NCBI GenBank assembly: GCA_020346765.1
Contig: CP070788.1
Coordinates: 1,448,864-1,482,396, forward strand
Direction: 5' to 3'
DNA from: Nitrospiraceae bacterium
Lineage (GTDB): Bacteria > Nitrospirota > Thermodesulfovibrionia > UBA6902
Length of the DNA stretch: 33,533 nt
Of this stretch, positions 1,804 to 21,162 are shown piece by piece (positions within the stretch are counted from its first letter, which is position 1; every line of letters starts with the position of its first letter). The notes beneath the pieces were generated by a model. That model saw nothing but the letters and a program-made list of their open reading frames with translations, did not search any database and was not told the origin of the DNA. A program made the position numbers and the translations under genes.

Positions 1804-1881
1804 GATTATGTCCCCCCTGAAATGATGGTTACTCCTGATATTTGTCACTGGCCTGGAAAGGATCCAAGCATGCAGTATGTA

Positions 1882-2051
1882 CACAGTTCGGGAAAGGGTC
1901 GAAGAAAGGCTTGCGCCATACCGTAGTACAGATGTCTCCATCGAAAGGTATACTTGAATAGCGTGATTCGAAGACCTTATTATCAGGCGACACTACTTTC
2001 TCCAAACGATCATGGCTTTCAAACCTTTTTGAGAGCCTTTCCCGAACTGTG
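1882..2051 (+). repeat. Repeat B, copy B1 (170 bp, terminal inverted repeats)
   Basis: The element is bounded by a perfect 16-bp inverted repeat, CACAGTTCGGGAAAGG at 1882-1897 and its complement at 2036-2051. The interior (for example GCGTGATTCGAAGACCTTAT and GGCTTTCAAACCTTTTT) recurs at 19294-19530 in the same orientation and at 5867-6034 inverted. It is short, non-coding and non-identical between copies, which fits a MITE-like element that is no longer moving. Confidence 0.75.
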
Positions 2052-2110
2052 CATCGGCATATGTAAAAAAATTTTCGAACATCTTCGATGATGGTATGAT
2101 TTTTCATGAA

Positions 2111-5838: not shown

Positions 5839-5866
5839 CGTTACTTGTTTAAGCTACATTATTCAT

Positions 5867-6034
5867 CAATTTCGGGGAAGCCTCTCAAAAAGGTTTGAAA
5901 ACCATTAACGTTTGAAGAAAGTAGTGCTGCATGGTGATAAGGTTTTCAAATCACGCTTTACAATTATCCCTATTGCTGGAGGTATCTGTTCTATGGTGTG
6001 GCGCAACCCTTTTTTCAATCCTCCCCCGGAATTG
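5867..6034 (-). repeat. Repeat B, copy B2 (inverted)
   Basis: Read on the minus strand, this is the same element as copies B1 and B3. It has imperfect terminal repeats: CAATTTCGGGGAAG at 5867-5880 against the complement of TCCTCCCCCGGAATTG at 6019-6034. It sits between the pseudogene and the 3' end of ccdA. Small open frames over it on both strands translate repeat sequence and are not genes. Confidence 0.72.
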
Positions 6035-6083
6035 GTATACGTATATTCATTATCCAGGTTAATGCTTCGAGAAGGGATGCTTT

Positions 6084-6815: not shown

Positions 6816-7050
6816 ATATAAGTAATAAGCCCTTAGCGTTAAGCTTTAATAATAAACATGGTTATTGTACACGGGAAAACACATAACCTCATTTTCTGGA
6901 AACTTCTTTGATCACCGCGCATTGACATAATACCTCTATCAACTGCCAGCAATCCAATCCGTGTTTCAGTAAACAAAGGCAACAACTGATCGCTGAATGC
7001 TGCTTTACTTGATTTTACAGGAAGAGGGGTGAACTAAGCCACTCCGCCAC

Positions 7051-7130
7051 CTCTTAACTCCAAGCTCATAGATCTTTTTCAGAGGTGTCAGAGGTGTCGT
7101 ACAGAAATTTCTCCACAAGCTTCCCATTCT
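7051..7130 (+). repeat. Repeat A, 3' partial copy
   Basis: The stretch CTCTTAACTCCAAGCTCATA...GGTGTCGTACAGAAATTTCTCCACA matches the right half of repeat A at 2200-2284 and 19168-19248. It contains a perfect 9-bp tandem duplication, CAGAGGTGT at 7080-7088 and 7089-7097, absent from the other copies. The left half is missing. Confidence 0.65.
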
Positions 7131-7136
7131 CCAGAA

Positions 7137-7216
7137 CCGTTTGAACATGGAGGTTTTTCTAAAGGGCCGTACCGCTTGTTTATATGGGGTTCAAATCACG
7201 CTGTACAGATATCCCT
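7137..7216 (-). repeat. Repeat B, degenerate fragment
   Basis: ACCGTTTGAA, GGTTCAAATCACGCTGTACA and TATCCCTGGTGG align with the inner part of repeat B in the orientation of copy B2 (5905-5990). The terminal repeats are lost. Confidence 0.5.
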
Positions 7217-7238
7217 GGTGGTGGCAGGAGAGGCTCAC

Positions 7239-19051: not shown

Positions 19052-19073
19052 TCCTGATAATAGATTCTCAGGA

Positions 19074-19248
19074 GAGGTAAGCCTGTATCGAAATTTCTAT
19101 AATCGACACACACCATATTACGATTTTACCTCGGGGCTGACAATGCCTTCTGATTTTGTTCACTCTTACCTCTTAACCCCGGACTCATATCTCTTTTTCA
19201 AAGGTGTCGTATAGAAATTTCTCCACAGCCTTCCCTCTCGCCTCAGCC
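19074..19248 (+). repeat. Repeat A, copy A2
   Basis: This is the best-preserved copy of repeat A. GAAATTTCTATAATCGACAC (19090-19109) and GTGTCGTATAGAAATTTC (19204-19221) are inverted repeats matching at all but a 2-base insertion, enclosing a core of about 95 bases. Homology to 2111-2284 extends beyond the right terminal repeat through CAGCCTTCCCTC. Confidence 0.75.
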
Positions 19249-19293
19249 AGTGGACCAGTCTGAACCACGGAGTCACCGAGCGTACTTCATTCA

Positions 19294-19530
19294 TGAATTC
19301 CGGGGAGGGTCGAATGAATGCAGGCTGCACGAAGTGCAGCTTTGTAATTAATCAAACTTCCCTCACATTGAGGCGCAGCCTCAAAAGGGTTGCGCCATAC
19401 CATAGACAGACATTTCCAGCAATAAGGATATCAGATCAGCGTGATTCGAAGACCTTATCAGCATGCGATACCACTTTTTTCAAACCGTTATGGCTTTCAA
19501 ACCTTTTTTGCGAGCCCTCCCCGGAATTGA
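19294..19530 (+). repeat. Repeat B, copy B3 (with internal insert)
   Basis: Terminal inverted repeats AATTCCGGGGAGGG (19296-19309) and CCCTCCCCGGAATT (19515-19528) are perfect over 14 bp. The inner sequence follows copies B1 and B2, except for about 66 extra bases (19315-19380) that contain two perfect 7-bp hairpins. Confidence 0.78.
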
Positions 19531-19536
19531 CATGAT

Positions 19537-21162
19537 TTATGGATTAAGAGGGCTGGTTGTCGTTTTTTTCCAGTAGGGGCTGGACAAATCCTCAAAGGCC
19601 GAGAGGGATGCCACGCTCCCCTGTCCCACGGCAACGGTGATCTGCTTTATCCCGCCCGTAACATCGCCTGCCGCGTAGACAAAGGGCATAGACGTCCTCT
19701 GCCGGTCATCTGCTATGACATACCCCTCTTTGCTGAGCCTGAGGCCGAGCTTTCCGGCGATGGCATTGACCGGGTCATAACCTATGGCGATGAACACCCC
19801 GTTGGCTTCTCTCTCTTCTTTCGTTCCCGAGGTGAGGTTTTCTATCTTGAGTGATTCGACCTTCTTGTCGCCGAGGATTTCCATGGCACTGCTATTCCAC
19901 AGAACAGGTATGTTTCTCTGTTTCAGGGCGTCCTGAAGGCGGGCCTGGGCCCTGAAGGCGTCTTTCCGGTGAAGGATTGTGACCTGGGCGCCGAGGCTGT
20001 CGAGGTACAGGGCATCCGTGAGGGCGCTGTTGCCGCCGCCGATGACGACAACCTTTTTCCCCTCTCTGAAGAGGAACCCGTCGCAGGTTGCGCAGTAGCT
20101 CACACCGCGTCCGGCAAGCCTCGCTTCTCCCGGAATATTGAGCCGCCGGTGCTCGGCCCCTGTGGCGATGATGATTCCCCGGGCATGGTAGATGCCCCTG
20201 CTGGTCCTGACCTCAAATCCCTTCCTGCCCTGCACGGATATAGCATCGACGGATACGCCCTGAAGGACGGGGGCATACTCTAATGTCTGGCGGGCCAGCA
20301 TGTCCACCAGGGTCTTGCCCGCGATGCGCTGAATTCCGGGATAGTTTTCGACGACTGGGGTTATGGTGATCTGGCCGCCGATATTTGCCCGCTCAAATAC
20401 AATGCTCCGCAGCCCGCTCCGCTCGGCGTACATCGCTGCGGTCAGTCCTGCGGGGCCGCCCCCCAGGATGACGAGGTCGTAATCCCGCTTGTCCTCCATA
20501 CCTGCCGGCATCACATATCTGACCGGACGGCCTTCGATGAGGGACTCCATGAAGTTCTCCTCAGGCTCAAGGCCTGAAGAGGTATGTGTTTCGTCCACGT
20601 AGGTAGTCGGCACGGACATGGCCCCCTCCTGTTCTGCCAGGTCCTGGTTCTGATAGATCTCAATGATTTCCGCGGACACCAGGTCCTTTCTGTAAACTGC
20701 CGCCGAGAGCGCGTAGAGTGCCTGCTGGGGGCAGTAAGGGCAGGTGGGGCTGACAAAGACGCGCACGTGACGCCTGACCTTCAGTCTGTCCAGTCTTTTT
20801 CTGGAGTCGTCGGACATGATGGTCTGCCCCAGGGAGACCATCATGATGGCAATAATCAGAGAGCGGCCCTCCTCCCCAAGGGGCGCTCCTGTATAGCGCA
20901 GGTGATAGGTTTCAGGGCTGATAAGCAGGGTAGGCGACCGTTCAACGCTGAACTTTTTTGATGCCTCGTCGCCGATGCTGTGAAATTCATGGCGTATGCG
21001 CGAGCTGACGGAAGAGATCTCCCTGATGAATTTATCCGAGAACTCGTTGAAAGGATCGTTCACGCCTTTTTTTGTGAAGAGCATGAGCGTGACCTCTCCC
21101 TTGAGCTGACCCAATGTTTCACCAAGCAGTTTTCTGGTGTCAGGAGTGATGATCTCTGCCAT
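19537..21162 (-). CDS. trxB: Thioredoxin reductase fused to an N-terminal PDO-like (tandem thioredoxin-fold) domain
   Basis: This 541-residue fusion has residues 1-215 as two thioredoxin folds, as in archaeal/thermophile protein disulfide oxidoreductase and the AhpF N-terminus. The first fold lacks a CxxC, and the second has CPYC at 141-144 and the cis-Pro loop SVPTTYV. Residues about 225-541 are a thioredoxin reductase: FAD loop GGGPAG at 234-239, redox CATC at 357-360, NADPH loop GGGNSA at 375-380 with HRK, and the second FAD motif YAAGDVTGG. It should pass electrons from NAD(P)H to its own CPYC and on to client disulfides. The promoter overlaps the sulP stop and the mRNA may be leaderless. 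Cytoplasmic. Confidence 0.93.
   Translation of the reverse strand: MAEIITPDTRKLLGETLGQLKGEVTLMLFTKKGVNDPFNEFSDKFIREISSVSSRIRHEFHSIGDEASKKFSVERSPTLLISPETYHLRYTGAPLGEEGRSLIIAIMMVSLGQTIMSDDSRKRLDRLKVRRHVRVFVSPTCPYCPQQALYALSAAVYRKDLVSAEIIEIYQNQDLAEQEGAMSVPTTYVDETHTSSGLEPEENFMESLIEGRPVRYVMPAGMEDKRDYDLVILGGGPAGLTAAMYAERSGLRSIVFERANIGGQITITPVVENYPGIQRIAGKTLVDMLARQTLEYAPVLQGVSVDAISVQGRKGFEVRTSRGIYHARGIIIATGAEHRRLNIPGEARLAGRGVSYCATCDGFLFREGKKVVVIGGGNSALTDALYLDSLGAQVTILHRKDAFRAQARLQDALKQRNIPVLWNSSAMEILGDKKVESLKIENLTSGTKEEREANGVFIAIGYDPVNAIAGKLGLRLSKEGYVIADDRQRTSMPFVYAAGDVTGGIKQITVAVGQGSVASLSAFEDLSSPYWKKTTTSPLNP

Follow-up and report, generated by a model that had tools for sequence, protein, structure and literature searches.

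The window, i.e. the whole stretch of 33,533 nucleotides analysed here, covers positions 1448864–1482396 of a Nitrospiraceae genome of 2,693,380 bases, which is listed as 80.16% complete although it consists of one contig. It carries three full copies and one fragment of a short repeat, family B (Table 1), in agreement with the initial annotation: a search with a profile model built from 29 genomic copies matches 5868–6030 (− strand), 1887–2048 (+), 19379–19528 (+) and 7129–7224 (−), the third match covering the core plus right arm of copy 3, the long one, and repeat finding within the window recovers the same four pieces. No fifth member was found in the window: at E values up to 1 the model otherwise gives only weak readings of these copies on the opposite strand (E 0.037, 0.055 and 0.36). 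The ends first assigned to the repeat are real inverted repeats, but they are only inner arms, and the element runs further out on both sides.

Table 1. Family B elements and their parts in the window (window coordinates).
Feature	Position	Strand	Remarks
MITE copy 1 (L009)	1869..2074	+	Inner arms 1884–2049; outer extent by model
Conserved core of copy 1, between arms	1911..2023	+	
Target-site duplication TTAA of copy 2, one side	5849..5852	.	
MITE copy 2 (L017)	5853..6058	−	Inner arms 5868–6033; complete, both outer ends
Target-site duplication TTAA of copy 2, other side	6059..6062	.	
Core-only fragment	7129..7224	−	Model positions 53–148 of 165, 40.3 bits
MITE copy 3 (L027), long type	19281..19553	+	Inner arms 19296–19528
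Two-hairpin module in left arm of copy 3	19315..19385	+	

Copy 1 has decayed outer ends and no visible target duplication, and the first 14 bases are identical between its inner arms, with changes that are absent from both arm consensuses. In copy 2 the outer ends are swapped relative to the core, i.e. the spacer is inverted. Copy 3 shows no target duplication and is long because of a module of 71–75 nt that is also present in six other copies; it overlaps the 3′ end of a thioredoxin-reductase-like ORF (19537–21162, − strand; named by reading). The last codons and the stop codon of this ORF (19537–19553) are supplied by the outer end of copy 3.

A second repeat family with its own inverted ends, family A, lies at 2100–2294, 7049–7147 and 19072–19257 of the window and has 18 matches in the genome, some of them partial. 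At three places it adjoins a complete copy of family B, and two of these places have the order B then A at about 50 bp in the same orientation. Its piece 7049–7089 lies beside the family B fragment. A relative of family A is found beside IS1380-type ends in genome G390 (right part of L133, and L145).

Genome-wide, BLAST with copy 1 gives 31 matches, one of them a fragment, and the profile model gives 33, comprising 31 core-bearing copies, which were used for the arm tests, and two fragments, which were left out. Mean pairwise core identity between copies is 0.775. With a length of about 205–273 bp, 31 copies plus two fragments and no transposase gene, the family is of MITE size and constitution (<500 bp, multi-copy, no transposase gene), and both its outer ends and its inner arms form terminal inverted repeats. 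Neighbouring genes of the 31 copies, called with a crude longest-ORF caller, run in the same direction in 15 cases, divergently in seven and convergently in six, with three arrangements incomplete; two of the 31 copies are flagged inside an ORF.

Outer ends and target-site duplication

Alignment of the flanks of the genomic copies shows conservation for 15 bp (left) and 25 bp (right) past the inner arms, so that defined ends are present genome-wide. The outer-end models are CCTGCATTATTCATAAATTTCGGGG on the left and, read inward, CCTGGATAATTCATAAACCCATGCAAATTTCGGGG or CCTGCTTAATTCATAAAATCATGTCCATTTCGGGG on the right, corresponding to the motif CCYGnATTATTCATAAA and close forms. Ends were placed by the best match to these models, which were made from the same copies, and not by a search for repeats. 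A search of the genome with the right-end pattern gives 31 hits, namely the known copies and four further loci, of which L085 and L100 are core-less copies and L101 is a partial copy; the fourth, L099, is a right-end match inside a gene and was set aside as chance. In the core-less copies (L085:2112–2224 and L100 about 505–650) the family B ends surround a different short interior, which is GGGNCGAATGNATGGAAAG-like.

The flanks of the placed elements agree over 4 bp more often than expected when left and right flanks are dealt out anew among the elements: 0.492 against 0.386 permuted for 33 elements (the 31 copies and the two core-less ones; p 0.003), and 0.562 against 0.43 for the 24 elements with good ends (p 0.0014). 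None of the windows of 2, 3 and 5–9 bp reaches p 0.05 by permutation. The duplication is perfect in five of the 33 (TTAG, TTAA, CTCC, CTAA and TTAG), and 16 of the 48 tetranucleotides flanking the 24 elements have the form YTAR (eight TTAG, four CTAA, three TTAA and one CTAG). With the same crude ORF caller, six of the 31 copies (L011, L014, L016, L018, L019 and L020) have a gene stop codon in the four bases beside the element end.

Correia elements use a TA (2-bp) duplication, and a Correia-type element was rejected here since the 2-bp end windows match no better than permuted ones. For MITEs in general, the duplication is described as `usually the dinucleotide TA' in PMC4133298.

Related elements and IS1380 transposases

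With at most one mismatch allowed, a search of 37 genomes from the taxonomic family gives 100 occurrences of the outer-end motif, 11 of them in the present genome, against seven for the reversed motif used as a control. The motif is present in 27 of the 37 genomes, most often in G390 (19) and G292 (14). Of 20 stretches read in the relatives, 13 yielded 14 short end pairs, while in the other seven a contig end cut the element or the partner end was absent or distant. The elements with the same ends measure 161–227 bp, except for one of 393 bp. By raw count, perfect 4-bp duplications flank five of the 14 pairs (TTAG, CTAA, TTAA, CTAT and TTAA), and eight of the 14 match at three or more of the four bases. 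L122 is, by eye, flanked by CTAT on either side. The remaining six have little or no duplication, matching at none (L133 and the 203-bp pair of L146), one (L148) or two (L137, L141 and L144) of the four bases. The G292 copies look alike by eye, suggesting that this lineage has moved more recently. Two longer end pairs, of 2.3 kb in L133 and 1.6 kb in L145, contain no transposase on reading of their ORFs. The end-motif hits L110 and L112–L114 look by eye like ordinary genes and were rejected as elements. A further element of about 180 bp in G016 (L103, contig C153), TTAA|CCTGTTTAATTCATAAA...GAATAATTCAGG|TTAA, is, by eye, possibly another IS1380-type MITE, one that lacks long arms.

Clear similarity between genomes is confined to the outer 17 bp. 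A model of the core form of this genome (R1) finds no match in 40 relatives or in 394 further genomes of the phylum (overlapping sets; seven candidates were scored per genome in the search of 395 genomes); since R1 matches its own genome only, it misses the diverged relatives found by the end motif. In other collections the core pattern gives five hits in genome contigs and one in viral contigs, about the chance number by rough arithmetic; the core model gives a single weak match (L078, 11.8 bits), and a core search of plasmid and phage collections gave none. By eye, pieces of the core are alike between this genome and the relatives (GCGATACCTTAG / GCGCCATACCATAG; TTCAAGA..TTTTTGA).

The outer ends point to the IS1380 family of insertion sequences. 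The transposase domain of that family (PF13701) was found in three of 12 genomes searched, and in G021 a remnant of 1.0 kb (L153:1355–2369) consists of a piece of IS1380 transposase (NCBIfam NF033539, E 4.1e-47; 160.7 bits, the whole-protein cut-off being 180) flanked by the inverted ends CCCACATTATTCATAAA and CCCACTTTATTCATAAA, each one mismatch from the motif. The flanks of the remnant, TTAA and GTAG, are unmatched. A search of 47 genomes of the order (E ≤ 1e-10) gave no second relative of the remnant and no intact IS1380 element with exactly these ends. Two other loci were set aside, the L152 frame in G411 and the L154 piece in G016, as no such ends flank them in the DNA covered; at four mismatches they show three and two end matches, respectively, which is chance-like. 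L152 (G411:C111:234–1463) contains a long open IS1380-like frame (473 amino acids from the first start) in DNA that starts at the first base of the contig, and may use other ends. Viral contigs contain one distant IS1380-like locus, L157.

A tblastn search with the first part of the remnant matches 648 plasmid records, all less than 60% identical. Six plasmid elements were read, and three of the six have inverted ends and 4-bp repeats, in a scan that favoured pairs having a repeat. An element on an Endozoicomonas plasmid has the same sequence at both ends and is 17/18 alike (CTAA|CCCGGATATTTCATAAA...|CTAA); its record is unannotated, and its assignment to IS1380 is by tblastn to the remnant. 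Annotated IS1380 elements on Microvirga (CTAA|CCCATCTTATGCAC...|CTAA) and Sphingobium (TTAG|CCGCTCTTATGCAC...|TTAG) plasmids are 15/18 and 13/18 alike, respectively. In a Pseudanabaena element (L160) the ends are similar but the flanking tetranucleotides are TTAG and CTAG; for L158 and L161 the end scan settled no pair with a 4-bp repeat. The ends of family B are therefore shared by the G021 remnant and the Endozoicomonas element, and its duplication length and target by three of the six plasmid elements. Elsewhere, IS1247 and ISPsp9, both IS1380 elements, are listed with 5-bp repeats in published work, the latter in PMC4133298.

By its outer ends and target, family B is classed as a MITE of the IS1380 type, very probably a non-autonomous DNA transposon that would have been moved in trans by IS1380-family transposases. 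An IS1380-family transposase would recognize the outer ends, cut the element out and join it into a new site, preferring YTAR and duplicating 4 bp. As YTAR holds TAA or TAG, some insertions would fall exactly at the stop codon of a gene; such a preference would explain the copies at stop codons and hence how they do little harm. The initial statement that the repeat lacks a transposase holds for the ORF list of the window, on reading, and for the genome, which has no match to PF13701. An autonomous partner, and with it an active IS1380/MITE pair, was thus not detected in this 80.16% complete genome, where the copies would now decay in place, but such a partner is not needed for a decayed MITE family. 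The description as MITE-like accordingly stands, with defined ends, 4-bp target duplications, many and mostly intergenic copies, no transposase of its own and the ends of a known transposon family.

Compared with known systems, family B resembles IS1380 insertion sequences (PF13701/NF033539) in the outer-end motif, the inverted ends and the 4-bp repeat (three of six plasmid elements), and differs from them in its small size and lack of a transposase; its long inner arms and conserved core had no counterpart at the ends of the IS1380 elements examined. The Chunjie MITE of Geobacter uraniireducens, likened here by description only, is also short (178–235 bp) and is present as tens of mostly intergenic copies together with partial copies, according to the review PMC10969869. 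The same review describes Correia, ERIC and similar palindromic repeats as mostly intergenic, with a stable predicted hairpin and no gene, like family B, which is set apart from them, without direct sequence comparison, by its 4-bp rather than 2-bp duplication and by the lack of any Rfam relation found. The Tn3-derived TIMEs are likewise non-autonomous, with borrowed transposon ends and conserved core stretches, but have Tn3 ends and 5–6-bp repeats and usually occur as a single copy, according to PMC4133298. No IS1380 MITE is reported in the passages covered of PMC3281130, PMC4133298, PMC3542288, PMC10813416 and PMC10969869, and the word IS1380 is absent from the main text of the last of these, a 2024 review; one may nevertheless be in print elsewhere.

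Inner arms, core and two-hairpin module

The initial annotation held that the ends have changed while remaining complementary within each copy. Complementarity is indeed better than chance: over 14 positions the identity between the two arms of a copy is 0.804, while arms taken from different copies reach 0.765 (p 0.0001, n = 31), and the excess holds without copy 1 (p 0.0004). Nine changes are shared by the two arms of a copy while neither consensus has them, against 2.05 expected (p 0.0004). They are spread over six copies (p 0.0074), and three copies, namely window copies 1 and 3 and L034, carry at least two of them, against 0.16 expected (p 0.0002). The coupling is therefore significant, but the nine shared changes account for only 18 of the 104 arm deviations counted (43 + 61); the other 86 are absent from the other arm, so that most change is uncompensated and pairing is weakly kept in this genome.

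In a 29-pair stem aligned over 29 copies, standard pairs fill 88.9% of the cells (86.9% shuffled), the covariation score is 0.095 (0.070 shuffled) and double-change cells number 16 (8.0 shuffled), each with 0/500 shuffles as high. Ten of these 16 cells fall in one base pair and may be inherited, and the number of base pairs with any double change is not above shuffles (6 against 4.0, 71/500). Inheritance thus accounts for most of the arm complementarity, and a genuine coupling adds to it.

Elements of the relatives share the outer ends, whereas their inner arms differ and are mostly self-complementary. In a comparison of 25 elements (eight from this genome and 17 from relatives), the other arm of the same element scores above all 200 shuffles in 19, including 12 of the 17 from relatives. 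Against arms from other genomes, the own arm scores 55 versus 14.8 in G020, 31–50 versus 13.7–18.2 in five G292 elements and 34 versus 11.7 in one G390 copy. The other eight G390 copies give a mixed result, partly from the turning of some by eye, G409 does not stand out, and four of the eight copies of this genome score no higher than the mean of their genome-mates. One copy of this genome, L033 (G000:C1:1494816–1494998), has an extra insertion of 21 nt just inside the right arm.

The core is unevenly conserved: 18 of its 106 columns are invariant, whereas equal rates would give 0.86, and the plain decay of a dead MITE does not account for this. In the core stretch GATT(T/C)GAA(A/G)ACC two positions four bases apart switch together in nearly all copies (TTGAAAA/TCGAAGA), and no pairing that would explain the switch was found. 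Consensus folding of the core is weak (−2.22 kcal/mol). A coding core was rejected: reverse frame 2 is open in ten of 31 copies and is protein-like, but three-base periodicity is absent (p 0.91), and the reverse-frame peptides of the four copies searched, of the 31, have no Pfam or NCBIfam match. Copy 1 as a whole has a predicted fold of −65 kcal/mol on the + strand and −69.3 kcal/mol on the − strand (z −6.4 and −6.8), with 0/200 shuffles as good. It contains one promoter-like site (0.6 expected) and no terminator. Rfam gives no match at gathering score in the window and, on three loci, only a tRNA beside the element in L134, so the element matches no curated structured-RNA family among those searched.

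The two-hairpin module of about 75 nt occurs at one place in the left arm of seven copies, window copy 3 among them, and BLAST finds it nowhere else in this genome. The seven copies are scattered on the core tree (six changes, shuffles 6.5), which has no strongly supported branch; a single clade of these type-2 copies was rejected (AU p 0.0106), on a weak tree of 106 columns. A related module occupies this left-arm position in two G390 copies, L134 and L142, the second of which is truncated by the end of its contig. Hairpin 1 reads GGCTTTAC-GAA-GTAAAGC here and GGCTGCAC-GAA-GTGCAGC in G390, a compensatory difference between genera.

Spacer inversion and the origin of arm complementarity

Copy 2 and L025 have the short-type outer end on the right and the long-type end on the left, the reverse of the other copies, while the inner arms and core keep their mutual order. 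The difference in spacer-order score is −0.87 and −1.17 for these two copies, respectively, and +0.08 to +1.28 for the other 29, of which L023 and L012 come closest to the line (+0.08 and +0.09) and both have poor ends. Template switching between inverted repeats is described as giving both arm homogenization and spacer inversion in the abstract of PMC8604942. In family B the long inverted inner arms could form a hairpin in single-stranded DNA; replication switching template between the arms would copy one arm onto the other, which would account for the private changes found in both arms of single copies, and would sometimes flip the spacer, leaving the core inverted between the outer ends. 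As arm homogenization and spacer inversion are both products of template switching, this process is preferred, by a modest balance of probability, to selection on pairing as their cause.

Selection on pairing would mean that the arms are kept complementary as a hairpin in transcribed RNA (affecting mRNA stability, as an RNase III target or as a structured RNA), with the MITE origin only a matter of history. The stable predicted fold of copy 1, the standard pairs and covariation score above all 500 shuffles, the self-matching arms of 12 of the 17 elements from relatives despite their different sequences and the compensatory difference in module hairpin 1 are all consistent with it. However, both strands of copy 1 fold about equally well, the copies stand in all arrangements to genes, and there is neither an Rfam match to the element nor a terminator-like site on copy 1. 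Furthermore, 86 of the 104 arm deviations are unshared, the shared ones arrive two at a time in three copies and base pairs with a double change are not in excess (71/500 shuffles reach as many), so that a hairpin under selection appears rather unlikely.

Still less probable is an independent birth of the arms in each species, in which transposon ends would repeatedly have captured palindromic DNA and no co-evolution would be involved. The restriction of clear similarity between genomes to the outer 17 bp would fit such births, as would the two core-less copies with B ends around another interior. Against this, the module at the same left-arm place here and in G390 and the resemblance by eye of the core pieces GCGATACCTTAG and GCGCCATACCATAG make at least these lineages look homologous, and the private changes shared between arms inside one genome would be left unexplained. 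That the repeat is not mobile at all and is a conserved cellular feature in many copies, such as a small RNA gene or a protein-binding site, is very improbable. The strong rate differences between core columns and the recognizability of the core across copies could be read in that way, but the target duplications and transposon ends, the confinement of core form R1 to this genome in the searches of relatives and phylum, and the lack of coding periodicity speak against it.

Template switching between the arms of an IS1380-type MITE remains the preferred reading. A broader proposal is offered only tentatively and is doubtful at present: that a hairpin-plus-core architecture is kept throughout the bacterial family while arm sequences turn over and the 75-nt module comes and goes at one arm position in two or more genera. 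Family B would then be either a natural, replicated record of template switching from arm to arm or a structured mobile element whose core and module have a function of their own.

Family B is an ordinary kind of element, and its unusual trait is that the two arms change together in some copies. With its ends and target duplication linking it to a named transposase family, what was an orphan repeat becomes testable and can be annotated in related genomes. If the preferred reading is true, the arm homogenization and spacer inversion in many aged copies would offer a direct means of measuring template switching in natural bacterial genomes.
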